From NCBI GenBank assembly GCA_947385955.1, contig CANDNA010000027.1:1-43913 (forward strand): a DNA stretch of 43,913 nucleotides, given 5' to 3'. Made by a program: the position numbers and the translations under genes. Below the pieces are notes generated by a model. That model did not search any database and was not told the DNA's origin. It saw only the letters and a program-made list of their open reading frames with translations. The DNA comes from an uncultured Clostridia bacterium. GTDB taxonomy: Bacteria; Bacillota; Clostridia; Lachnospirales; Lachnospiraceae. Shown here one piece after another: positions 10,067-36,120 of this stretch (position 1 is the stretch's first letter; the number at the start of each line of letters is the position of its first letter).

Positions 10067-10477
10067 CTATTCGATTGCCCCAATCCCCATACGTTCCAGC
10101 CGTTCCAGATTCTCCCGCATAGTTTGCAGCGCCTCCGGTGAATGCCCGTTCCAGCCGGCCACCTCGCCGACAATCTTCAGGGGCGACTGTGTACGGTAAG
10201 ATTTTGTCGGATTGCCGGGAAACTTTTTGTCCGTCACATTCGGATCATCTTCAAACTCTCCCGTTGGCTCCACAACATAAATTCTCTGCCTGCCGTCCCC
10301 GGCTGCCAATTCCGCACCCCATACAGCCGCATCCAGCGTTCCCGAAAAATAAACATACTTCGCTGTCCTGTCCGCATAATTGGACAAAAACCCTTTTGTC
10401 AGGAAATCACCTGTCTTTAAATCTGCCTTCGTCCCATGAAAAAAGGAACCGGGACTAAATGTTATTTTCTCATCCAT
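10067..10477 (-). CDS. arr: NAD+-rifampin ADP-ribosyltransferase
   Basis: A 136-aa protein with the full Arr pattern: FFHGTKADLKTGDFL near the N-terminus (His-Gly-Thr), the YADRTAKYVYFSGTLDAAVW segment, YVVEPTGEFEDDPNVTDKKF, then NPTKSYRTQSPLKI. Arr enzymes transfer ADP-ribose from NAD+ to a hydroxyl of rifamycins, inactivating them. The length is normal and the conserved His, Tyr and Asp residues are present. The start is fixed at 10477 by AAGGAGG six bases upstream. It is monocistronic, faces away from the ROK gene, and has no mobile element attached, so it looks chromosomal and intrinsic. Confidence 0.92.
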   Translation of the reverse strand: MDEKITFSPGSFFHGTKADLKTGDFLTKGFLSNYADRTAKYVYFSGTLDAAVWGAELAAGDGRQRIYVVEPTGEFEDDPNVTDKKFPGNPTKSYRTQSPLKIVGEVAGWNGHSPEALQTMRENLERLERMGIGAIE

Positions 10478-10983
10478 TGAAAAACCTCCTTCCACATCGC
10501 AGGATTATATTATAGTTAAAAAAATCCGGCATATCAAGTCTGTCAGCAACGGCCATTTTGGGGTATCATAAAAATAAAGAGTTATCTCTTCATAAACTCC
10601 TGTAATTTATACACTGCCCATAAAACGTTCAAACGGGAAGTTTCCAAAACGGCCGCTGTATCCTGCAATAGGTGAAAATTATCAGACAACAATGAAGAAA
10701 TATTGTGCAAAATAATTTTTAAATTCTGATTTAATATTTGCAAATCACATGTTATTTCATATTTTTCTATTTTGTATAAAATATACTTTGGCATATTACT
10801 CAAAATCCGAAATCATCCGTATTGCCAGAGAATATAATGACCATCTTTTTTTAATCAGATTCGTAAATATTTTTCTGATTATTAACAGAATACGCACTTC
10901 TGATACTCTCTTTTTTGTGCATGAAAAGAGAGGCAGCAGACAATCCAAAGGAGTATAATGATTACGGGAAAGGAGTAAAAGAA
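10478..10983. other. AT-rich intergenic region between arr and an AraC/GyrI regulator
   Basis: This 506-bp stretch is very AT-rich. It should hold the arr promoter at the left and the AraC-type gene promoter at the right. A short inverted repeat (AATCAGA ... TCTGATT, 10852-10880) lies about 100 bp before the regulator. A 73-codon frame at 10582-10803 has no ribosome binding site and is not called. No RNA gene was recognised. Confidence 0.3.
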
Positions 10984-24426: not shown

Positions 24427-25436
24427 TAGCAATCCAACAAATTATTGCACATAATTGCATGAACGAAACCACTCTGAACAATCCGGGGGACGGACAGTTG
24501 AAAATGCCTTTTCTATTGCGCCCGGTAATTCTGACGCAGTACGTACTTTTACTTTTCTCAAATATGCCTTGATCTTTGACCACATTTTTTCAATCGGGTT
24601 CAGATCCGGGCTGTAAGGTGGAAGATAAAGATATTTGATTCTTGATGCATCCAGAATCCCTTTGACCACTTTTGCATGATGGGTGCGCATATTATCCATA
24701 ATGATGACGTCATTCTCTGATAATGTCGGCAGTAAAATGTTTTCCAGATATTCTGCAAAGCGTTCCGCTGTAGTACCGCCCTGATAAACCGTATGGGCCG
24801 TCTTTCCGTTCAGACATATGGATGACAGGAGCGTGGTGCCACGCGGCGTATTTACAGGCGCACTGTCCACTGCACACTCATTGGTTTTCGAACGGGCGTA
24901 ATGCCTTGTCATATTCGTGTTGACGCCGTTTTCATTCAGAAATACCAAGTTATTTACGCCTCTCTCCGGTATATGTTTTTTCCATGCTTCCCTTTTGGCC
25001 CTGACATCGGAAACGCTCCTGCTTGCGAAGCATAGAGGGACTTCTTTTTATAAACGTATCCGGGTTTCAGGACTGTTTTGCGGACGGTTTCATCACTTAC
25101 CTGTAACCGGAGTTTTCCCGTATTTCACGGATTGTAATATCGGGCTGTTCCTGTATTAGCCGGTCGATATTGTGAATATCCGTTTGACTTAGGGCAGGTT
25201 TACGCCCGCGCAGAGAAACCCTGGTTTCCACAGAGCCGGTTTCCCGCATTCTTTTTTCCAGACGATAAACTGTGCTGGTATTTACGGAAAAGCATTCTGC
25301 CACTTCCTTTGCATTATGGGTTTTGTTCCATGCCTCGATAAGCAGTCTTCGTGCTTCATTATACAGCATAATAATCGCCTCCTGTCTCTATCATAAACCT
25401 TATGTCAAGTGAGTGCAGTATTATTTTGGATTGCTA
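24427..25436 (-). mobile_element. Decayed IS630-family insertion sequence
   Basis: The element is bounded by TA on both sides (24427-24428 and 25435-25436) and by matching ends reading TAGCAATCCAA at left and, inverted, at right. TA target choice and the internal DDE transposase fit the IS630/Tc1 superfamily. It is about 1.0 kb long. The transposase is broken and the element should not move on its own. Confidence 0.8.
24442..25369 (-). pseudogene. IS630-family transposase, multiply frameshifted
   Basis: The N-terminal 90 codons (ATG 25369) encode a helix-turn-helix (NAKEVAECFSVNTSTVYRLE) and stop at TAA after ENSGYR. The next frames supply LQVSDETVRKTVLKPGYVYK, then ERFRCQGQKGSMEKTYTGE, then GVNNLVFLNENGVNTNMTRH onward, so at least three frameshifts occurred. 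The C-terminal part has the second Asp (IMDNMRTHHAK) and the Glu (LNPIEKMW), but the first catalytic position reads VFLNEN where VFLDES is expected: the Asp is Asn. Both the frame losses and the Asp loss show a long-dead transposase. Confidence 0.8.
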
Positions 25437-25880
25437 TAGAAAGCCCACGCTTTGCAGAAGTCACCTACATGATCAAGCAATATTTTGATGATTCACTGGC
25501 TGCCGGTTTCGCCGGATAGAACCAGATGCTTACTACTCTCAGCACGATGCTACGCCGAAATGTGAAAACAGATGCCGCTATGCAGGCGGCCAGAGCTGTC
25601 AACAGGCAGACCTGACGATGATACAGAGCCCGTTCATGTCAGCGCTGCGGAAGTGAAGAAAGAAATCGGCAACGATTTTACGGCGGCGCAATCTTTGACC
25701 AAGGACATCACCCAGCAGATGTTCACTGAACTCACCAAAGGAGCGGATGTTCATACTCCGACCATCACGCCGGAAATGATTTCCGCCGCCGTTACCCAGA
25801 GTGCAGCGGGGATGGACGGTGTGCACCCCCTATGTTCGTGCAAAGGCTATCCAACTCATCTAATCCTGTCGGATTTTTCC
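25437..25880 (+). pseudogene. Unidentified coding debris right of the IS630
   Basis: Short open stretches in successive plus-strand frames look protein-coding but are interrupted: ESPRFAEVTYMIKQYFDDSL, then MLTTLSTMLRRNVKTDAAMQ, then AEVKKEIGNDFTAAQSLTKD leading into TPTITPEMISAAVTQSAAGM. Together they resemble one gene of a phage or conjugative element after several frameshifts. I could not name it. None has a ribosome binding site. Confidence 0.45.
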
Positions 25881-25890
25881 TGCCCGAACA

Positions 25891-25947
25891 TGAAACAGAC
25901 ACACAGATTTAATAGCCTATCTACATGAAGATCTGTGTGCTGTTTCA
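25891..25947 (-). terminator. Long hairpin after hsdR
   Basis: TGAAACAG and CACACAGAT pair with ATCTGTGTG and TGTTTCA (17 bp with one bulged base), with a loop of about 22 bases. It starts 4 bp after the hsdR stop codon. There is no clear T-run on the minus strand, so termination is likely but not certain. Confidence 0.5.
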
Positions 25948-25950
25948 CTG

Positions 25951-28900
25951 TTATGATGCTACAATTTGAACCGCATTCTCACGAATCTGATTGATGGTTG
26001 CCATCAATGCCGTTCTAGTCTTTGCATCAAACAGCTTGATAAAGCTGACCGTCTTATCAAATGGCGGCTTTTTGAGTTCCGAAACATTTTCCATATATCC
26101 ATTCAGCTCAATGTAATTGATAATCTTTTTTACAAAGGCAATTTGTTTCTGATTCAAAGACTGATCGTTGATAAAAGCAGAAAACGCCTGCATAGCAGCA
26201 TCGTGATCCAATTTGGCGATTTTACGAACCAGCAGGCCAAATGGCGTGTCTCCAAATTCCCGCTTGTAATCTTCTTTGCTCCCAAGTTCGCTTGTCAAAA
26301 CTTGCTCCAGCTCTTGATAATCGCCCATATCCAGCGGAATATTATGAGTCAGCTTGTATATTGCCAGCGTATTTCTGTGCTCATTGACATAGCGGTTTAC
26401 TTTGACACGATAGTCTTCAAAATCATAAGCTGCATCTAACTGGATACCTTCTTGGCTATCAGTAATCGGATCAGTAAGTTTGGTGACGATGCGTTTCTGC
26501 TCTCCGCCCCCTTCGTCCAAAAATCGGATTAAATTACAAATTTCTCTCCGCACCTTTTCAAACAATAAAATATCATTGGCGTTCCAGAAGGCATCAGTGT
26601 GGATTTCCTGAAGCAAAGGCAATTTCTCTTTGATTTGCGGAATGTTGGCCTTACGTTCCAGCAGGGTAGCCGTATCACATAGCTGTTTTTTTGCATATTT
26701 GAAAGCAGGCAACTGATCAATGTGAGCCAATATCAAACCATACATGAAATTATCGAACCGCTTGGCAAATTCATCACTTTCATCCGACTGGACAAGCGAT
26801 GCAATTTGTGTCAGTAACTCGCCTTTATCTCCTTCACTTAGTGAAAGAAAGGCATCACTCTTCTTGTATTTTTCCACATATTGTATCCGCAATTTTACAG
26901 AAATCAGCTCTTGGTTCAGTTCCGCAACTTGCTTATGGCAGGTATCAACAAGCTCATTTCTCCATTCTTGATAGTCCTCTCCGAGAAAGGCACTTTCTTG
27001 TAAAGCCATAGCAATTTTAATCCGTTTACCGAAAATATTTTCCGATAATGTCTTTGTCTCTCTGGCCTCATACCCTTCCTTATGTTCCCGGAAATATTCA
27101 AAATTTTTGCAGTAATCAAAAATCAGAAAGCGACGTTTATCCGTGCATGTTCCATCAATTTGATCCACACAGGACAATCCCTTACACAAACGGGTTCCTC
27201 GGCCAATCATCTGCCAGAATTTTGCTTTGGATCGTACCTTCTTGAAAAATACCAGATTGACGCATTCCGGCACATCAATACCCGTGTCCATCATATCTAC
27301 TGACACCGCAATATGAGGTTCCTTTTCCGGCTGTTTGAAATCATCTATAATAGTCTGGGCATAGCTATCGTCATAAATCACGCGCTGGGCGAATGAACCG
27401 TGATACTGTGGGTAAAGCTTATTAAAACGCTCCAAAATGAATTCGGCGTGGCGTTTATTCTGCGCAAAGATAATGGTTTTACCCAACCGATCTCCACCCG
27501 CGACCTTAATGCCTCGCTCCATTAAATCCTGCAACACAATATCCACGGTTGTTTCATTGAACACAAATTTATTAAGATCCGCAGATGGAATAAAGTCCGG
27601 CATCATGCCATCTTCAATGAAATCATCTTCGTAACGCTCTTTATCTTCGTCAGACAGGTCATCATAGGTAATGCCTTCATCCAAGAACTTGGTTTTGACC
27701 TCGTAATTATAGTATGGTACAAGCACATGATCTTGGTAGACTGCCGTTTCATAATCATACACATAAGTAGGGATACCGTGCTCCATCTCAAAGAAATCGT
27801 AGGTGTTCCGATCTACATCCGTTTTCGGCGTGGCAGTAAGACCAACCATCAAAGCATCGAAGTATTCAAAAATCGCCCGGTATTTTTTGAAAATACTCCG
27901 GTGACTTTCATCAATAACAATTAAATCGAAATGTGCCGGAGTAAACAACTGGCGACCATCTTTGGACTTGGTGTCGTCGATAGCATTCAAAATCGTTGGG
28001 TAGGTGGAAAACACAATCCGGGCATTCCGGTCATCCTTGTTGGAGCACAGATTACACAGAGACATATCCGGCAGATACCGCTTAAAATCATCCTTGGCCT
28101 GTTTTACCAAGGCGGTGCGGTCAGCCAGAAAAAGAATGTTGGTGATCCACTTGCCGCGGCTGAGCACATTGGTCAGGCTGGAAGCCGTCCTTGTTTTTCC
28201 CGTACCGGTGGCCATCACCAGAAGGTGTTTACGAAATCCTTGTTCAATCTGTCCGCAAACAGCTCGTATAGCCTCTTTTTGGTAGTAGCGATCTGTGATT
28301 TTATCATCAATGGGAATGCTCATCAAGTCTTGCCGTTCAGCACGGCGATTCATCAGCTTTTGTAAATCTTCCTTGCTGAACACGCCGCTGACCTTGCGCT
28401 GGGGGCCAGACTGGTTATCCCAGTAATAAGTCTCAAAGCCATTAGTGGTGAACATCATCGGACGGCGGCCAAATTTCCGTTCCAAACAATCCGCGTACAA
28501 AACTGCCTGCTTCCGCCCAATGTTAGGGTCTTTGCTGGTGCGTTTGGCTTCAATCACGGCCAGCGGAAGGCCATCCTTACCAAACAGTACATAATCGCAG
28601 TAGCCCATCTGGCCCACCACGCCAGCCATACCTTGTACAGGGTATTCCTCCTGCACATCTGCATCTGTACCTGTAAATTTCCAGCCCATAAACTTCAAAT
28701 CTACATCAATGTAACTTTTCCGTGTCTGGAACTCGGACAAATCTTCCGGCTGAAAAGAACGCTCCTGCTGATGTTTCTCTTTTTCGGCGGTATAATGAGC
28801 GGACATCTGCTCAATTTGTTTGCGCAGTGCCTCAATCTCTGCTTCTTTTTCATCCAGCAGGCTTTCCTGTTCTTTGATTTTCCGAATATCTACTGCTACT

Positions 28901-29328
28901 TTTTCAGTAGGAATCAGGCTTTCGTAAAAGGCACGCTCCTGATAATCAGTTCCATAACAATAGTCAATCCACTGGATGAACTCAAACAAGCCCTTCAATG
29001 ACGCAAGAGCATCACTGGGCTGCACGCTCCGTTCTGTATGTACTGCCAGATTACCCAACTTGATGATAAAAGGCAGTTTACCCCAAGTATTAGAATCCAC
29101 TGCGAACCGGAAGGACAGCTCATGGATAAGAGATTGCAGATTGTCCTTATGGGGCATTTTCATAGTCTTATCCGCTGTATAGACCCACTTAACCGCTAGC
29201 TCCAATGCTTTCCGGCAGCCTACTGCACACATGGCAGGAGCAGAAGCATAAATTTTCTCGGCTTCTACGCAGGCAGAGGAAAAAAGAGCATATTCTTGTT
29301 TGGTTACAAGAAAAGAAAAATTAGACAT
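25951..29328 (-). CDS. hsdR: Type I restriction endonuclease subunit R (EcoEI-like)
   Basis: A 1125-aa protein. The N-terminus is a DUF4145-type domain (about residues 1-125), then a coiled-coil. A PD-(D/E)XK nuclease follows: CDYVLFGKDGLPLAVIEAKR carries Asp and Glu-x-Lys. Next is an SF2 motor with Walker A MATGTGKTRTA, DEAH-type VIDESHRS, LTATP, and QMIGRGTRL (motif VI). A helical C-terminal domain ends it. Type I R subunits translocate DNA and cleave unmodified DNA with M2S1. AGAGGTGA precedes ATG 29328. It is the last gene of the operon, separated from hsdS by three other genes, which is unusual. Confidence 0.93.
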   Translation of the reverse strand: MSNFSFLVTKQEYALFSSACVEAEKIYASAPAMCAVGCRKALELAVKWVYTADKTMKMPHKDNLQSLIHELSFRFAVDSNTWGKLPFIIKLGNLAVHTERSVQPSDALASLKGLFEFIQWIDYCYGTDYQERAFYESLIPTEKVAVDIRKIKEQESLLDEKEAEIEALRKQIEQMSAHYTAEKEKHQQERSFQPEDLSEFQTRKSYIDVDLKFMGWKFTGTDADVQEEYPVQGMAGVVGQMGYCDYVLFGKDGLPLAVIEAKRTSKDPNIGRKQAVLYADCLERKFGRRPMMFTTNGFETYYWDNQSGPQRKVSGVFSKEDLQKLMNRRAERQDLMSIPIDDKITDRYYQKEAIRAVCGQIEQGFRKHLLVMATGTGKTRTASSLTNVLSRGKWITNILFLADRTALVKQAKDDFKRYLPDMSLCNLCSNKDDRNARIVFSTYPTILNAIDDTKSKDGRQLFTPAHFDLIVIDESHRSIFKKYRAIFEYFDALMVGLTATPKTDVDRNTYDFFEMEHGIPTYVYDYETAVYQDHVLVPYYNYEVKTKFLDEGITYDDLSDEDKERYEDDFIEDGMMPDFIPSADLNKFVFNETTVDIVLQDLMERGIKVAGGDRLGKTIIFAQNKRHAEFILERFNKLYPQYHGSFAQRVIYDDSYAQTIIDDFKQPEKEPHIAVSVDMMDTGIDVPECVNLVFFKKVRSKAKFWQMIGRGTRLCKGLSCVDQIDGTCTDKRRFLIFDYCKNFEYFREHKEGYEARETKTLSENIFGKRIKIAMALQESAFLGEDYQEWRNELVDTCHKQVAELNQELISVKLRIQYVEKYKKSDAFLSLSEGDKGELLTQIASLVQSDESDEFAKRFDNFMYGLILAHIDQLPAFKYAKKQLCDTATLLERKANIPQIKEKLPLLQEIHTDAFWNANDILLFEKVRREICNLIRFLDEGGGEQKRIVTKLTDPITDSQEGIQLDAAYDFEDYRVKVNRYVNEHRNTLAIYKLTHNIPLDMGDYQELEQVLTSELGSKEDYKREFGDTPFGLLVRKIAKLDHDAAMQAFSAFINDQSLNQKQIAFVKKIINYIELNGYMENVSELKKPPFDKTVSFIKLFDAKTRTALMATINQIRENAVQIVAS

Positions 29329-29419
29329 CAAATCACCTCTATTCTGTTTAATTTTGCAAACTTTGTATTAGCCTCGAAAAATTCTGCATTATCAGGAAAT
29401 GATTATCCAGCACATAGAA

Positions 29420-30031
29420 CTACCGATCTTGCCCATCCTTCAAGAAGAATACTTGTTTATCCCGTACCGAACTATTTAGGCTCTCTCTATGTAAACATAC
29501 AAAATAGTCTAATGTCTTTTCTTCTAGAAGTCGTTCCTGAATATATCCTTTTGTACTTCTGTTGTATTTATAACCAAACTCTTTATATAATCGTTGCTTT
29601 CCAATACGAGTTTTAAAAGCAAACATCGCTAATTTTATATGCTTTGTTTCATCATGCAACTGGAAAAATTCATTTTTTTCAATGGTTTGTGTTAAATCGT
29701 CCAAGGTGGCGTTTCCTTTGACTTCTATAACCATTATTCAGTCATTTGGTTCAACCAGAAAAAGGTCTCCGCCTAGTTGACGCCGATAAAAATTTTTCCT
29801 ACATACGATGATGTCACATTGTGGGCTTTGATGATTGGCTCAAGCAATAAAACCGGTAACAAATTCTAGCATTTGGAACCGTTCCTGGAGACATTTTTTG
29901 AGAATATTTTCTCCACATCTCCCCGTCTCAGCATGATATTTTAACTTTTCAACTATAAAATATTTGCAGAACAGAAGCTCCTCCGAATATTCCTCATATA
30001 TCTTTGTAACCTCTTCTTCCATAATAGACAT
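29420..30031 (-). pseudogene. PD-(D/E)XK-like (DUF6602-like) gene with two in-frame TGA codons
   Basis: A single frame of 204 codons is open from ATG 30031 to the stop at 29420 except for two TGA codons, at 29840-29842 (codon 64) and 29738-29740 (codon 98). Read through, it gives a coherent protein: EFVTGFIA, then SPQCDIIVCRKNFYRRQLGG, VEPND, then IMVIEVKGNATLDDL. Asp73 and Glu103-Val-Lys105 form a PD-(D/E)XK core as in DUF6602-type proteins. It lies 9 bp after a membrane-protein gene and 91 bp before hsdR. Either two nonsense mutations have hit a nuclease-like accessory gene, or the TGAs are read through; the former is much likelier, as other genes here end in TGA. Confidence 0.7.
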
Positions 30032-30040
30032 CTCACTTGC

Positions 30041-30808
30041 TTAAAATTTTTGTTTAGAAGTCTTTTTGAGCATTTGATAGCCGGCCGTTCCACTTATTTC
30101 AAGCATCGAATATTTCTTCAGCATCTTCTCTAAACTAATCCGAATTTGGACAGGGGTATAAGGAGTTAAAGCCCCCTGGTTAATGATGGACTTAGTCCAA
30201 TCTCTTTGTTGATTATAGAGGCTCAAAAACCGATTCATATCAAAATTGGGATTCTGTACCGCTATTTGTTGCACCATTGCGTTAAGCGTACTCCGATCTT
30301 CTTCCGAAACATCTTGCGGAATCATATTTCCCATAGCAGAAGTGATGTTTTGCGCTGTAACTCCTGTGCAAACATTGTTAAGATCGGCCATAATAAACTG
30401 TGATTCTATATTTGCTAAAACATTTTGTGTTATCCGAAAGGAATTCTTTTGGAATGACTTTATAAACATCTGTTGTTCCTGAATCTCTGACACATACTCA
30501 TATAGTTGATTCAGTGCTGTATAGCTGGTCGCGTCTATTTTTCGGACAAAGTAATGTTTGTACTTGTTCCAATAATCCGTATCCATCAAGGGTAGTGATT
30601 CATAGAACGCCGTTTCGTTTAATTGGCCGTCAACAATAAACGTAGAGATTTCCCTTAACCTCTCCTGGAATTCATCGATTTGGAGGACGATAAGAGAAGC
30701 TGCATCAATCTTTTTCTTCCGTTCCTGCAATATGTAAGTTGCAAGGGCAAAGCTACCTACAATAATAAGTAAAATGTTTGCCCAGTTATCTCTTATAAAC
30801 TCTAACAT
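30041..30808 (-). CDS. Membrane-anchored helical protein embedded in the type I RM operon
   Basis: A 255-aa protein with one N-terminal membrane segment (about residues 9-26, ANILLIIVGSFALATYI) followed by a basic stop-transfer and a long, mainly helical, cytoplasmic domain. There are no cysteine clusters, nucleotide motifs or nuclease motifs that I can see. It is 9 bp from the 63-aa gene upstream and 9 bp from the broken DUF6602-like gene downstream, so it is made as part of the hsd transcript. Membrane effectors of this shape occur in abortive-infection systems, but the family is not recognised. Confidence 0.75.
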   Translation of the reverse strand: MLEFIRDNWANILLIIVGSFALATYILQERKKKIDAASLIVLQIDEFQERLREISTFIVDGQLNETAFYESLPLMDTDYWNKYKHYFVRKIDATSYTALNQLYEYVSEIQEQQMFIKSFQKNSFRITQNVLANIESQFIMADLNNVCTGVTAQNITSAMGNMIPQDVSEEDRSTLNAMVQQIAVQNPNFDMNRFLSLYNQQRDWTKSIINQGALTPYTPVQIRISLEKMLKKYSMLEISGTAGYQMLKKTSKQKF

Positions 30809-30817
30809 ACTTTATAT

Positions 30818-31009
30818 TCACCTCAGATACTGGCGTAGTATTTGACTCAAAACCATAACATTTGCTGCTCCAAATAACTCCTCTGCCAACTTTTGCTGCC
30901 GTTGAGGGGATAATTTTTGCATTGATCTCATTGCCTGAATCAAATCCTGCTTTGCTTTTTTATAATCGTCTGTAGGCTCCATCCCCAGTGATAATTTGTA
31001 TTCTTCCAT
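30818..31009 (-). CDS. Small helical protein between hsdS and the membrane-protein gene
   Basis: A 63-aa protein starting MEEYKLSLGMEPTDDYKKAK with a helical, Gln/Leu-rich remainder. It lies 9 bp after the hsdS stop and 9 bp before the membrane-protein gene; the regular spacing shows a real, translated member of the operon. It has no recognised domain. It may be a partner or regulator of the membrane protein, or a small accessory subunit of the restriction complex. Confidence 0.7.
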   Translation of the reverse strand: MEEYKLSLGMEPTDDYKKAKQDLIQAMRSMQKLSPQRQQKLAEELFGAANVMVLSQILRQYLR

Positions 31010-31018
31010 TTTATCACC

Positions 31019-32131
31019 TCACCCAAAATATTTTTGCATCAATGCTTTTTTCAGCGTTTCCAGCTTTTCAAGACTTTTCTGGATTGCCAATTTTAATTTG
31101 TCAGTCTGCTTGATGAAGGCGGCGAATTGGTCCTGCTGCTCTATCGGAGGCATATACACCACAAAAGATTGTACATCTTTTTGGTTGATACTGGCTTGAT
31201 TGACCGCCTTTTTTGCTCGTTTTAAAATTTGCTGATAAATAAATTCGGAGCAAAGCAGTTTCATAATGTAGACCGGATGAAATTTATGTTCATCTATATG
31301 CAATCTCATCATATTTGACTCAAAAACCGTATTTTCTACTAAACCTTGAATCAAACCGCACTTGCCGAGATATTCAATGCTATTAACTCGATTGACAACA
31401 ATATCATTTTCATATAACGAGTATCGCTTCAGCTCTATTTCTGAACAAATTAGCCGTTTTAGTGATGAAAATTCCGACACTTTGCCATCATAAAAACTAT
31501 CTATTCGGAGAATAGGTACGCCTGTTCCATCTGATACATAATCGGACTGAGGCTTATAAAGTCCATTCTGCGGCTCGATTGTCAAAACTGATCCTAAAAT
31601 CACTTTTGGTAAGTTGTGTGGATTCGTCATTGGGTCACCAAACATCTCGATAAATCGGGATTTCACCAATTCATCCAACTTGTCCAACTGCTGGCGGCGT
31701 TTGGCGATCAAGCCACTGACCTTGTCCAGCGTTGCCACAATTTTGCGCTGTTTGTCAAGGGGTTGGAGGGGAATATGCGATTCCGTTAAATTTCCAAGTT
31801 TTATATACTTGATAACTCCACCTATGGACTGTTCACGCAAAGCTTCAACATATTTATCGAGAAAATAATATAAATATCGTACAAGTAATTTTTCTTTATT
31901 GTTACTTTCAATGATATATGTTCGCTGGTATGCATCGAATTTTCCCGAATAATATTTTACGTTTAAGTCACCATTTCCCGCAACCAAAACACATTCGCAA
32001 TCATAGCTATATGTATCTATTAAAAGAGATTCTTTAGAACAAGTAAAAAATGGATATATGCCATTATCAGACGATGCATTTGCATCCAGCTTTCCAGTTT
32101 TTATATAAGTATAATCCCCCAACCTGACCAT
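31019..32131 (-). CDS. hsdS: Type I restriction-modification specificity subunit S
   Basis: A 370-aa specificity subunit with the usual order: target recognition domain 1 (residues 1-120), a central conserved helix (PLQPLDKQRKIVATLDKVSG through LDELVKSRFIEMFGDP), recognition domain 2, and a second conserved helix (PPIEQQDQFAAFIKQTDKLK). The repeat of the PPxxxQ-xxxF/I helices is the family hallmark. The start at 32131 overlaps the hsdM stop by one base (TGATG); a GTG at 32134 is an alternative. The recognised DNA sequence cannot be read from this. Both halves are present and no inverted-repeat switch was seen near the gene. Confidence 0.92.
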   Translation of the reverse strand: MVRLGDYTYIKTGKLDANASSDNGIYPFFTCSKESLLIDTYSYDCECVLVAGNGDLNVKYYSGKFDAYQRTYIIESNNKEKLLVRYLYYFLDKYVEALREQSIGGVIKYIKLGNLTESHIPLQPLDKQRKIVATLDKVSGLIAKRRQQLDKLDELVKSRFIEMFGDPMTNPHNLPKVILGSVLTIEPQNGLYKPQSDYVSDGTGVPILRIDSFYDGKVSEFSSLKRLICSEIELKRYSLYENDIVVNRVNSIEYLGKCGLIQGLVENTVFESNMMRLHIDEHKFHPVYIMKLLCSEFIYQQILKRAKKAVNQASINQKDVQSFVVYMPPIEQQDQFAAFIKQTDKLKLAIQKSLEKLETLKKALMQKYFG

Positions 32132-33663
32132 CACAACATCCCCTCCAATTCTTCCAGCTCTACGGTAATCTCCAGCTCCAGATCGTGCATGTCTGCCATC
32201 AGTTCTGTAGTGGAAGGATACTCCACCGGCACATACTCCACCTTTTTGTACTTGTTAATGGACAAGTCATAGTCATTATCGGCAATCTCCTGCTTGGGTA
32301 CAAAAAAGCTCTGCTCGGTGCGTGGGCGACTGGCATCCTGCTCCAAATTATGAAACCGGCTGATGATGTCGGGGATATCATTGTCCGAAATCTCGCTACG
32401 CTTGTCATCCAAGCTGAAACCGTCGACCGTCATATCATAAAACCACACGTTGTCGGTACCGCCCGCACCGGTTTTGGTGAACACCAGCACCGCTGTGGAA
32501 ACACCGGCATAGGGCTTGAACACACCGGAGGGCATGGAGATCACCGCCCGGAGTTGATGATTCTCCACCAACTCCTTTCGGACGGATTTGTGTGCTCTGG
32601 AGGAACCAAACAACACGCCATCCGGTACGATGCAAGCACATTGACCACCCTTTTTCAACATCCGCAGAAATAGTGCTAGGAACAGCAGCTCAGTCTTTTT
32701 CGTGTTGGTAATAGTTTTTAAATCATCGTTGATGCTCTCAGCGTCAATGGTGCCTTTGAAAGGCGGATTTGCCAGACAAACAGTATATTTATCCCGAATT
32801 TGGTTCTGCTTGGAAACGCTGTCCTGGTAGTCAATTTCCGGGTGCGTAATAGAGTGGAGCATCAGATTCATGGCCGAAAGTCGCAGCATAGTACGATCTG
32901 TGTCAAAGCCGGTAAACATCGGGCCGGAGAAATGTTCCCACTGCTCGTTTGTCATTGTATCTTCATAATGGCTGCGGATGTACTCCGCCGATGCCACTAG
33001 AAAGCCTGATGTACCACAGGCCGGGTCACAGATTGTATCCTCTGGGGTGGGCTGCAAAAGCTCCACCATCATTTTGATGATGTGCCGGGGTGTACGGAAC
33101 TGGCCGTTTTGACCGGCAGTAGAAAGTTTCCCCAGCATATACTCGTACAGATCGCCCTGCATATCCAAATCGGAAATGTCGTGCTCATACAGGTCGTCCA
33201 AGCCTGTAATGATTTTTTGCAATACCTGCGGCGTAGGAATCAGGAACATTGCATCGCTCATATACCGGGCGAAAGCAGTATCTTTTTTGGTATCATCTTC
33301 AGAGCCATCCACGATTTCGAGCATCTCGCCCTGCTCCGTAAAATCTGGCAGATGGCCATATTTCATGTTTTTAATAGCAGGAAATACCCTCTGGGAAATC
33401 AAATCGTAAATGTTACGAGGGTCGTCATTCTTGAACTTGCTCCAGCGCATGGACTGCCCGATAGGGGACTGCGGGAAGATTTTATCCATCTTCTCGTCGC
33501 CCATATTTTCAAATTCTTCCGTCTCCAGTTCTTTTTCATCGAGAGAGCGGATGAACATCAGGTAGGTCAGCTGCTCAATTACTGTCAAAGGATTGGTAAT
33601 GCCGCCAGCCCAGATGTCCCTCCAGATTTTATCTACTCTATTTTTGATTGCGCCAGTAATCAT
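32131..33663 (-). CDS. hsdM: Type I restriction-modification DNA methyltransferase subunit M
   Basis: A 510-aa adenine-N6 methyltransferase. The N-terminal helical domain (about residues 1-165) is followed by motif I DPACGTSGF and motif IV NPPF in CLANPPFKG; these bind S-adenosylmethionine and the target adenine. The start overlaps the stop of the XRE gene (ATGA) and GGAGG is upstream, so the regulator and methylase are coupled. It methylates host DNA at the HsdS-defined site and forms M2S with it. Length and motifs are normal. Confidence 0.93.
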   Translation of the reverse strand: MITGAIKNRVDKIWRDIWAGGITNPLTVIEQLTYLMFIRSLDEKELETEEFENMGDEKMDKIFPQSPIGQSMRWSKFKNDDPRNIYDLISQRVFPAIKNMKYGHLPDFTEQGEMLEIVDGSEDDTKKDTAFARYMSDAMFLIPTPQVLQKIITGLDDLYEHDISDLDMQGDLYEYMLGKLSTAGQNGQFRTPRHIIKMMVELLQPTPEDTICDPACGTSGFLVASAEYIRSHYEDTMTNEQWEHFSGPMFTGFDTDRTMLRLSAMNLMLHSITHPEIDYQDSVSKQNQIRDKYTVCLANPPFKGTIDAESINDDLKTITNTKKTELLFLALFLRMLKKGGQCACIVPDGVLFGSSRAHKSVRKELVENHQLRAVISMPSGVFKPYAGVSTAVLVFTKTGAGGTDNVWFYDMTVDGFSLDDKRSEISDNDIPDIISRFHNLEQDASRPRTEQSFFVPKQEIADNDYDLSINKYKKVEYVPVEYPSTTELMADMHDLELEITVELEELEGML

Positions 33664-33887
33664 GCGTCTTTTCCTCCATCTTCATTATCAGGAACAAATT
33701 CCATAATATCGCCAATATTGCAGTTTAACACTTTACAGATTTTCTCCATGCTTTCCATTGAAACAGGCGCACCCTTTCCTAGACGTGCCAGAACATTGGT
33801 GCTAATGTTTGCGCGATGCATCATATCGGTTTTACTCAAATCATGATCTATCAATCGTTTCCAAAGACGATTATAGCTAATTGCCAT
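33660..33887 (-). CDS. XRE-family helix-turn-helix regulator of the hsd operon
   Basis: A 75-aa Cro/C1-type protein: SYNRLWKRLIDHDLSKTDMM, then a recognition helix in HRANISTNVLARLG, and KICKVLNCNIGDIMEF at the end. AGGAGG precedes ATG 33887; a longer frame upstream is rejected because it would run through the promoter at 33916-33944. Its stop overlaps the hsdM start. It resembles the controller proteins of restriction systems and probably represses its own promoter. Confidence 0.85.
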   Translation of the reverse strand: MAISYNRLWKRLIDHDLSKTDMMHRANISTNVLARLGKGAPVSMESMEKICKVLNCNIGDIMEFVPDNEDGGKDA

Positions 33888-33915
33888 CCTGCACCTCCTG
33901 ATATTTTTCATTTCT

Positions 33916-33944
33916 AGTATACTTGATTCCGTACTAAAAGGCAA
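33916..33944 (-). promoter_or_regulatory. Promoter and likely operator of the hsd operon
   Basis: On the minus strand TTGCCT (-35) and TATACT (-10) are 17 bp apart, about 30 bp before the XRE start codon. Arms of an imperfect palindrome, TAGTAC and GTATACTA, lie between and over the boxes, a suitable operator for the XRE protein. Confidence 0.6.
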
Positions 33945-33978
33945 ATAAAATTCACGAAATAGTGAGCTCTAAGGCTGT

Positions 33979-34010
33979 AAAAAAGGACCTAAGCTAAAAT
34001 GCTCAGGCCC
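33979..34010 (-). terminator. Rho-independent terminator after the rlmD extension
   Basis: On the minus strand a 10-bp stem (GGGCCTGAGC with GCTTAGGTCC, two G-U pairs) is followed by six Ts. It starts 10 bp after the stop at 34020, not after the TGA at 34299, so the transcript still covers the separated rlmD extension. Confidence 0.75.
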
Positions 34011-34019
34011 TAATAATGA

Positions 34020-34298
34020 TTATATCACCTGAAAATGCCTTAGTGCCTCCATAATCGCCGCTTCCTTTTCTGGCGGGCATTTTGGCACTTTTGCATCTTC
34101 CTTCTTTGACAGATTATAATTTTGTCCCACCAACCCACACTTTCGCTTTATCTGCGAAATGTATAATGAAGATACCTTCAAGCTGGTATGCTCCAACACA
34201 TACGCCTTGATCTGCTCATAGGTCGCGCCCTTCTGGAAACCGGACATATCCATGCCCTCCATCGAGAACTTCACACGAACCGTCTTTAAATCGATTTC
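34020..34298 (-). pseudogene. C-terminal extension of RlmD, separated by a TGA codon
   Basis: The sequence continues the rlmD frame directly after the TGA at 34299: EIDLKTVR, then VKFSMEGMDMSGFQKGATYE, SLYISQIKRKCGL, and PPEKEAAIMEALRHF to a stop at 34020. Many Lachnospiraceae RlmD proteins carry this extension fused to the methyltransferase. There is no ribosome binding site for separate translation. The terminator lies after it. The simplest reading is a GGA-to-TGA nonsense change after VLLSK. Confidence 0.7.
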
Positions 34299-35675
34299 TC
34301 ACTTGGAAAGCAACACAACCGTCTCCACATGCACCGTCCCGGAAAACATATCCACCATCGTCACCCGTTCCACTTCATAGCCCATTGCAAGGAATACCTC
34401 CAGGTCTCTGGCCAGGCTGGTGGGTTTGCAGGAAATATAAAGAATGCGGTCCACACCGTATGCGATGATTTTCTGCAGTGCTTTGGGATGGATACCATCT
34501 CTGGGTGGGTCCAGGATGATAAAATCGGGGGTTTCCTCAATGGTATCCAAAACTTTCAACACATCCCCGGCTATAAATTCACAGTTTTGCAGGCCGTTTC
34601 GTTTTACGTTTTCCCTGGCGGCCTCCACGGCCTCTTCCACGATTTCCACACCGATGACCTTTTTTGCCACAGGAGCCATCATCTGGGCAATCGTGCCTGT
34701 GCCGCTGTACAGATCAAACAGAATCTGATCCGGCTTGTCGTTTCCCACGTTCCCGATCAAATCTCTGGCTGTCTGATACAGCACTTCCGCACCCCGGCTG
34801 TTGGTCTGGAAAAAGGAAAACTGTGAGATTTTAAACTGAAGCCCCAGCAGTTCCTCATAGAAATACTCTTTTCCATACAGGACAATGGTCTCATCACTTT
34901 TTATCGTATCGGACACGGCATCATTTTTTGTATGCAGAATCCCTGTTATCCTGCCATGCAATGGAAGCGATAACAAAGTATCTTTCAGTGCTGACAGGTC
35001 ATGGGTTTCCTGGGTAGTGGTTACCAATGCAATCAGGATTTCTCCTGTTTTACCTGCTTTCCTGACCAGCAAATGACGAAGATATCCTGTATGGCGCAGT
35101 CTGTGATAAAAAGATATGCCCCTTTCCCGAAAATACGCCAATACTGCCTTGACGATATTCCGGTAATCTTCATCCACGATCTGACACTCGGAAACTGTCA
35201 CAATATCATAAAAACTGCCTCTTTTATGCAGTCCCAGTTCCAGTGGGCCGTCCTTTATCCCGTCTCCAAAAGAAAACTCCATTTTATTCCGGTAGCCATA
35301 TATTTGCGGGTTAGGATGAATAGGCTCCCAGCTATAAGCCCCTTTCTGTTTTTTCAATACCGGCTCCAGCAGCATCTTTACCTGCTTTTCCTTCAATGCA
35401 AGCTGTATCTCATAGGGAAGGGTCTGATAACTGCAGCCTCCGCAGGCGCCGAAATGAGGACAGGGACTTTCAGTTTCATATTCTGCCCGTTCCAGGATTT
35501 CCAGAAGCTGTCCCTCTGCCTTACCCTTTCTTGCCTTTTTTACCACAAAAGAAACCTTCTGTCCCGGCAGTCCGTTTTTCACACTGCAGACCGAACCGTC
35601 CTCACACTGCACCAGCGCTTTATTGGGAAATTTCACCTCCAGCACCCTTCCTTCCAACCGTTCACCTTTTTTCAT
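34299..35675 (-). CDS. rlmD: 23S rRNA (uracil-5-)-methyltransferase RlmD-like
   Basis: A 458-aa protein with an N-terminal TRAM/OB domain (residues about 5-60), an iron-sulphur cluster motif CPHFGACGGC with a further Cys downstream, the SAM-binding FDLYSGTGTIAQ, DPPRDG, and the catalytic Cys in YISCKPTSLARD. It methylates uridine in 23S rRNA. GGAGAGG fixes ATG 35675. The core enzyme is complete. It ends at TGA 34299 just after VETVVLLSK, whereas the frame continues for 92 more codons in the conserved extension described at 34020. Activity of the core may remain. Confidence 0.9.
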   Translation of the reverse strand: MKKGERLEGRVLEVKFPNKALVQCEDGSVCSVKNGLPGQKVSFVVKKARKGKAEGQLLEILERAEYETESPCPHFGACGGCSYQTLPYEIQLALKEKQVKMLLEPVLKKQKGAYSWEPIHPNPQIYGYRNKMEFSFGDGIKDGPLELGLHKRGSFYDIVTVSECQIVDEDYRNIVKAVLAYFRERGISFYHRLRHTGYLRHLLVRKAGKTGEILIALVTTTQETHDLSALKDTLLSLPLHGRITGILHTKNDAVSDTIKSDETIVLYGKEYFYEELLGLQFKISQFSFFQTNSRGAEVLYQTARDLIGNVGNDKPDQILFDLYSGTGTIAQMMAPVAKKVIGVEIVEEAVEAARENVKRNGLQNCEFIAGDVLKVLDTIEETPDFIILDPPRDGIHPKALQKIIAYGVDRILYISCKPTSLARDLEVFLAMGYEVERVTMVDMFSGTVHVETVVLLSK

Positions 35676-35827
35676 AATCCTCTCCTTTATCCGGTAAATC
35701 TCATTCCCATACCCAAACGGGCAGTTGTCCCTTATGGCCAACTGCCCTGTATTTCTGATCAGCACATATAACGACAGCACCCCGGAGTCGGAATTTCAAA
35801 TTCCTCCTGTTTCTGACTGCTTACCTC

Positions 35828-35856
35828 ATTCTATCATAAGCCAATGTTGCAGACAA
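35828..35856 (-). promoter_or_regulatory. Promoter of rlmD
   Basis: TTGTCT (-35) and TAGAAT (-10), 17 bp apart on the minus strand, lie about 150 bp before the start codon. The 5' leader between them and the gene shows no recognised riboswitch. Confidence 0.45.
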
Positions 35857-36120
35857 GCCATGCAGACTGTTCTCAAATCACGCAGAAACAGAAAAACCCT
35901 ATACAAACAGATTTCAGGGGTTTTAAACATTGAAACAACTACACAAATCCTGTATCATATGAGTCAGTCACTCTGCTGCCATCAGCCAAACACCCGCCTA
36001 AGGGCATCCCATGACGGCAAAGCATGCGGTCCTGACAGCATTCGCACGATATCTGACTGGCAGACGCCGCCCCATTGTCCGCATATATCCAATCAAAACC
36101 ACAGCAGGAGGTATTCTATC

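Follow-up and report, generated by a model that had tools for sequence, protein, structure and literature searches.

Genes embedded within type I restriction-modification (RM) operons have been described in several bacteria. PMC12255303 places DarTG2 between hsdS and hsdR in the RRDM island of enteropathogenic E. coli and calls this site a potential recombination hotspot. PMC11411939 shows that the two TgvAB genes, which lie inside a type I RM cluster on Vibrio cholerae VPI-2, constitute an anti-phage system of their own; for embedded defense genes it cites Payne and colleagues. A further pair, rloA and rloB, lies inside the hsd locus of Campylobacter jejuni according to PMC2928727.

The locus analyzed here resembles the DarTG2 case of PMC12255303 in that a small regulator gene heads a type I RM operon and a putative second defense unit separates hsdS from hsdR; that case concerns a toxin-antitoxin pair, whereas searches of Pfam, NCBIfam and PADLOC with our cargo proteins returned neither DarT nor DarG. 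As with TgvAB, two genes of unknown function stand within a type I RM operon, an anti-phage role being established for TgvAB, which is related to GmrSD (PMC11411939); searches of the same three collections with our cargo returned no such match. Genes lacking an inferred function within an hsd locus also recall RloA/RloB of PMC2928727, though the gene pair is a different one. The third cargo gene scores above the curated cut-off of Pfam DUF6602 (PF20247) but is broken here. Because of the DarTG2, TgvAB and RloAB precedents, the architecture belongs to a known kind, and the locus consists of unnamed protein families of putative function in a defense-cargo slot. What it adds to the precedents is two intact protein families and a survey of the slot; these two families, which have no Pfam, NCBIfam or PADLOC match above cut-off, join the genes embedded in restriction operons.

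The operon lies on the minus strand of the window, the 43,913-nucleotide stretch of an uncultured Clostridia bacterium (Lachnospiraceae) that was analyzed, and its features are collected in Table 1. All three hsd genes are full length with their marker domains, and hsdR carries DUF4145 at its front and EcoEI_R_C at its back. Reading along the strand, the HTH_26 regulator is followed by hsdM, hsdS, orf63a, p255, the DUF6602 stretch and hsdR. The initial annotation had described genes embedded between hsdS and hsdR with 9-bp gaps, and this order was confirmed: the gaps between hsdS and orf63a, orf63a and p255, and p255 and the next ORF measure 9 bp each, all on one strand. It had also recognized no family for the 63-aa and 255-aa proteins, in agreement with Pfam and NCBIfam, which gave no match above cut-off for either, and with PADLOC-DB, in which no family reached E ≤ 1 for orf63a, p255 or either DUF6602 piece. 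Among solved structures, no relative of the cargo found by sequence was convincing, and PHROGs gave no match below E 0.019.

Table 1. Features of the type I RM operon and its embedded cargo in the window
Feature	Coordinates	Strand	Basis
HTH_26 Cro/CI-type HTH gene, possible controller, operon head	33660..33944	-	Pfam, E 8e-20
hsdM, 510 aa	32131..33663	-	N6_Mtase, E 2e-63; HsdM_N, E 2e-14
hsdS, 371 aa	31019..32134	-	Methylase_S, E 5e-21
orf63a, 63-aa helical protein, unnamed RM-linked family	30818..31009	-	ORF; no family above cut-off
p255, 255 aa, one N-terminal transmembrane-like segment, rest helical	30041..30808	-	ORF, hydrophobicity, low-confidence model
DUF6602 nuclease-like pseudogene, three in-frame stops	~29348..30031	-	holds ORFs 29840-30031 and 29420-29734
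hsdR, 1126 aa from the listed TTG, ATG directly after	25951..29331	-	DUF4145, HSDR_N, ResIII, EcoEI_R_C
Exchanged DNA segment, p255 and DUF6602	29349..30791	-	92.9% identity to L007 10018-11460

At the junction into the cargo, the TGA stop of hsdS overlaps a Shine-Dalgarno-like GAGGT leading into the next gene, and the same overlap precedes the first cargo gene in the operon of Merdimmobilis hominis (L007) and in two further p255-bearing operons (L009 and L012). A Shine-Dalgarno-like match near the stop was found in 11 of the 32 hsdS ends surveyed, so the feature is not general. The head of the M. hominis operon likewise carries a relative of the HTH_26 gene. A terminator-like hairpin (33984-34011) stands upstream of the operon, and on the operon strand the terminator scan predicted none inside the cargo; both signal scans ran near chance (10 terminators against 7.3 expected, 14 promoters against 20.1 expected). 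From this arrangement, orf63a and p255 would be transcribed together with the rest of the operon; p255 contains a promoter-like site on the same strand (30418-30390), which, together with a promoter count not above chance, was counted against such sharing. An Rfam scan of positions 25000-36000 gave no family at the gathering score.

The content of the interval between hsdS and hsdR was then compared across related genomes. An hsdR of this type (E ≤ 1e-200) occurs in 32 of 397 genomes of the family, the window's own counted, at 33 places; 30 were fetched, leaving out the window itself and two places with no upstream sequence (G249 and G175). hsdS lies on the same stretch in 24 of these 30 loci, and the others (L044, L048, L049, L050, L057 and L069) were dropped. 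Taking a slot as filled when an hsdS-hsdR gap above 200 bp holds at least one ORF of at least 50 aa, 17 of the 24 are filled, or 14 under a strict count without the untidy L053 (with an IS110-like gene), L058 and L064, and hsdS and hsdR are adjacent in the remaining 7. For this hsdR type, these figures contradict the expectation that hsdS and hsdR usually sit next to each other and, with the published cases, the suggestion that a filled interval is itself undescribed.

The 17 filled gaps contain 41 cargo ORFs of at least 50 aa, and 13 of these, from 8 loci, were scanned; they were chosen by eye and are thus not a fair sample, and the cargo sequences of L059, L060 and part of L061 lay outside the by-eye reading. 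Within this scanned set, the slot differs among relatives and holds known defense genes: an SpbK-like TIR gene (L051 3601-4455, E 4e-47), AbiH (L068, E 5e-30), the HEC-01A/B pair with a Fic protein (L070 3354-5982, E 6e-165 and 1e-101), a nucleotidyltransferase pair (L056) and an Mrr-type nuclease (L046). No defense label was obtained for the scanned cargo of L045 (DUF3990 and an unmatched protein), L063 (a DNA-methyltransferase repair domain) or L072 (no match). In a raw count, a protein with a strongly hydrophobic segment (threshold 1.8) occurs in the slot of 7 of the 24 loci. Profiles of p255 and orf63a gave no match at E ≤ 1 in the 30 other hsdR loci; the cargo of the window is one rare filling among many. 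Tyrosine-recombinase-like genes were seen by eye beside or between hsdS copies in L056, L061, L062, L067 and L068, which suggests a phase-variable hsdS in these loci.

Judged from gene content and comparison, we consider it probable that the hsdS-hsdR interval is a cargo slot for exchangeable anti-phage and other genes, in which p255 and orf63a have putative roles. Exchange of its contents would probably proceed by homologous recombination in the conserved sequences at the end of hsdS and the start of hsdR. In this genome the slot holds an intact orf63a, an intact p255 predicted to be membrane-anchored, and a DUF6602 gene inactivated by three stops. The operon would most likely express restriction together with the accessory gene of the slot, so that phages escaping restriction would meet a second protein; here this would be p255, possibly aided or regulated by orf63a, its nuclease partner having been lost. 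Our confidence was lowered because neither p255 nor orf63a occurs in the 30 other hsdR loci, and the presence of p255 in four conjugative elements and the rarity of both proteins were counted against this reading. As a practical rule, we suggest that the hsdS-hsdR gap in these Clostridia may be read as a catalog of candidate anti-phage genes.

Comparison with the M. hominis operon reveals that the cargo and the surrounding hsd genes differ in history. Outside the exchanged segment (Table 1), DNA identity falls sharply to 77.8% on the hsdM side (34355-32121) and to 77.8% on the hsdR side (29362-25833). This step is matched by the synonymous divergence, which is low in the cargo (dS 0.28 for p255 and 0.33 for DUF6602) and high in the flanking genes (1.41 for hsdM, saturated for hsdR). 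Given the identity step and the dS contrast, the simplest reading is that p255 and DUF6602 were transferred as one cassette relative to the M. hominis operon. No such step separates the window from L012 (74.2% in the p255 region, 79.5% in hsdM, 77.8% in hsdR). The surroundings of the cassette differ as well: ahead of p255 stands orf63a in the window and a Schlafen/AlbA_2 gene in M. hominis, where an extra DUF4238 gene lies between DUF6602 and hsdR. In L012 the slot consists of a frameshifted p255 between hsdS and hsdR, while that of L009 holds p255, a DUF2971 gene, a relative of orf63a, a duplicated hsdR start and a HAD gene, after which comes the full hsdR. This duplicated start of 127 aa (L009 11749-12132, ahead of the HAD gene) could be a scar of recombination at the slot edge or of cargo exchange.

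The apparent novelty of the locus is orf63a, which looks new as an RM-linked unnamed family when its relatives are compared. Searches of 348 genomes of the family and 391 of the class gave matches at E ≤ 0.01 in 2 and 8 genomes, respectively, the own genome and weak rows counted; rows from G834, G746 and G838, with E values of 0.0016-0.0086 and located in long frames or spanning 19 residues, were dropped. Five new loci in five bacterial families were obtained, and four of them lie in or at RM operons, three type I (one degraded) and one type III-like, while a contig end truncates the fifth. Their layouts vary. L092 reads hsdM, hsdS, orf63a, two short proteins and hsdR, and L094 reads hsdM, a 186-aa protein, hsdS, orf63a (about 58 aa), a 213-aa protein, a PIN gene and hsdR. 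L091 has orf63a, a weakly HipA-like gene and an hsdR-start remnant (64 residues aligned to the L092 start at 52% identity), and the type III-like operon L081 has a ResIII helicase, a 300-aa protein, orf63a and an N6_N4 methyltransferase. At the contig end (L093), the neighbors of orf63a are a serine recombinase gene and one that is RlmD-like. A sixth relative, found via p255, stands directly ahead of an hsdR start in L009. Searched alone within these loci, the window protein matches the members in L091, L092, L093 and L094 with E values of at most 9e-10 and gives no match at E 1e-3 to the L081 member, which is weak alone (E 0.001, 33% identity) and was included with that of L009 in the profile used for the class genomes. 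Most members share a signature near E-P-x-D-x-Y-x-K-A-K ... L-S/T-P ... Q-x-L-A-x-E, and the model predicts two helices at moderate confidence (mean pLDDT 76.7, from a two-row alignment). The neighbors of orf63a in L081 and L091 match the PADLOC candidate families PDC-S32 and PDC-M03A.

From this distribution, orf63a may be a small adaptor or regulator serving RM operons. A related possibility, which we regard as somewhat unlikely, is that orf63a, and perhaps p255, are accessory subunits or regulators of the RM system itself, acting for instance on the HsdR level or in membrane anchoring, rather than separate effectors. Its positions would fit such a role, since orf63a is the next gene after hsdS in the window, L092 and L094 and stands immediately ahead of an hsdR start in L009 and ahead of the methyltransferase gene in L081, and its small size is common among controllers; similar hsd operons nevertheless lack it, as the survey profiles and its rarity among genomes indicated, and Pfam recognized no DNA-binding domain in it. 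A bolder and rather doubtful proposal is that orf63a founds a new helical family of about 58-68 aa that provides a common small adaptor across different types of RM operon and could link the restriction complex to a membrane-bound or nuclease effector plugged in behind hsdS; if this were true, some type I RM operons would be modular two-stage defenses coupled by one common protein. Because the isoelectric points of the members span 5.1 to 9.1, they are unlikely to act uniformly as DNA mimics. A phage or plasmid origin of orf63a was also considered and found no support, as plasmids and phages gave no match for the queries tried and a first viral-contig scan gave none. One viral-contig match to the orf63a profile (L096, query residues 8-44) was not counted, as the gene (L096 4965-5162) encodes a small membrane protein and is surrounded by genes for phage structural proteins; an EPTDxYxKA stretch is common to this protein and orf63a.

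For p255, hydrophobicity agrees with the membrane anchor predicted by the initial annotation: the Kyte-Doolittle maximum of 2.0 occurs from residue 9 in a single N-terminal segment, and values stay at or below 0.7 from residue 41 on. The segment is followed by RKKK. By the positive-inside rule, the remainder is probably cytosolic. The structural model is of low confidence (mean pLDDT 70.9) and gave no match at E ≤ 0.001 in the PDB or among viral folds. Taken together with its position beside restriction, p255 would be a membrane-anchored accessory anti-phage protein with its N-terminal helix in the membrane and a helical domain in the cytosol. It is rare: matches came from 2 of 61 relatives, from 4 of 392 order genomes and from 4 of 397 family genomes, where one of them was weak and contained stops; the own genome and weak rows are counted. 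Distant matches in G046, G379, G456, G484 and a Cetobacterium record were dropped (25-31% identity where given), and the neighbors of the distant matches L006, L079 and L080 do not form an RM operon. A phage or plasmid origin found no support here either: phages and viral contigs gave no match, and a Cetobacterium plasmid matched at 31% over 46% of the protein.

Nine good p255 loci remain, the window counted. Four are type I slots (the window, L007, L009 and L012), and one (L008) has p255 after an AlbA_2 gene and before GIY-YIG T5orf172 and DUF3644 genes, with a type III RM pair encoded on the opposite strand at a distance of about 2 kb; the AlbA_2-p255 pair is common to L007 and L008. The other four (L003, L010, L011 and L013, with L010 and L004 being one place) lie near DUF961 and FtsK/SpoIIIE-type genes, with Pfam support for L003 only, in conjugative elements that we take to be Tn916-like. 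Homologs of p255 are thus not found mostly in RM operons. Linkage to RM genes in other species, by which the cargo was to be recognized as a defense system, held for orf63a in four of the five new loci and for p255 in the four type I slots, and failed for the four of nine p255 loci in conjugative elements. By its distribution p255 is best regarded as mobile cargo, because it occurs in these elements and beside a type III RM system. Its partners change from DUF6602 (L007) to GIY-YIG T5orf172 (L008) and DUF2971 (L009) to none (L012).

This mobility bears on whether the cargo genes are mere passengers with no RM role that hitchhiked through recombination or are remnants of a mobile element, which we hold to be quite improbable. 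The conjugative loci and the decay of some copies (p255 in L011 and L012, DUF6602 in the window) point that way; against it, p255 shows a dN/dS of 0.13-0.17 in three comparisons among the window, L007 and L008 (0.14 for the window and L007), and the conjugative copies are only 43-44% identical to that of the window, so the RM copies did not come recently from these elements.

The third gene was described by the initial annotation as PD-(D/E)XK-like, and a nuclease-like stretch is indeed present, while its 104-aa ORF is merely the C-terminal piece of a broken gene. One frame runs through the 63-aa ORF, two TGA stops, the 104-aa ORF and a TAG to the natural stop, and with X placed at the two TGA stops it matches DUF6602 (E 7e-8, 32.7 bits, cut-off 27). 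An intact relative occupies the same place in the M. hominis operon (L007:10787-11461, 93% identical over 202 residues; 40.3 bits in the profile search). Recoding of TGA was rejected, since TGA terminates five of the eight intact genes checked nearby, including hsdM, hsdS and orf63a, and is thus an ordinary stop; the third stop is a TAG. Relative to L007, the frame holds 13 missense and 32 synonymous codon changes and the three stops; under random mutation, the chance of at least three stops among the 16 non-synonymous changes is 0.07 and so not remarkable. With a dN/dS as low as 0.08, the gene seems to have been under constraint until recently. The PD-(D/E)XK label is one we presume; Pfam gives the function of DUF6602 as unknown; read by eye, neither remaining ORF carries both halves of the D...ExK motif. 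DUF6602 is not mentioned in the literature searched, which comprised almost no preprints and few subscription papers.

With its nuclease-like gene dead, this genome has no working membrane-plus-nuclease module, and the tempting pair of membrane effector and nuclease rests on a dead gene. The proposal of a single second-line, possibly abortive, module made up of all three genes, with membrane protein and nuclease acting together, is highly improbable and, provided the stops are genuine, has already been refuted for this genome: the common history of p255 and DUF6602 in the window and M. hominis, and the intact pair in the latter, speak for it, while the broken gene, the changing partners of p255 across L007, L008, L009 and L012, and orf63a standing without p255 in L081, L091, L092 and L094 speak against one fixed system.

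The wider neighborhood adds several minor observations. Close behind hsdR lies a transposase in two ORFs (24442-25369, minus strand; HTH part 25097-25369, DDE_3 part 24442-24948), so the operon has a mobile neighbor. A rifampin ADP-ribosyltransferase gene (Arr-ms, E 3e-48; 10067-10495, minus strand) is separated from the hsdR end by about 15 kb. RlmD-like rRNA uracil methyltransferase genes, so labeled by eye with Pfam support for the L093 copy only, occur in the window (34299-35780), L007 (4594-5829), L012 (69-1451) and L093 (1645-3042), the last three being 32%, 61% and 29% identical to the window copy, respectively. Their vicinity in four loci possibly marks a preferred insertion neighborhood for the hsd operon or orf63a.
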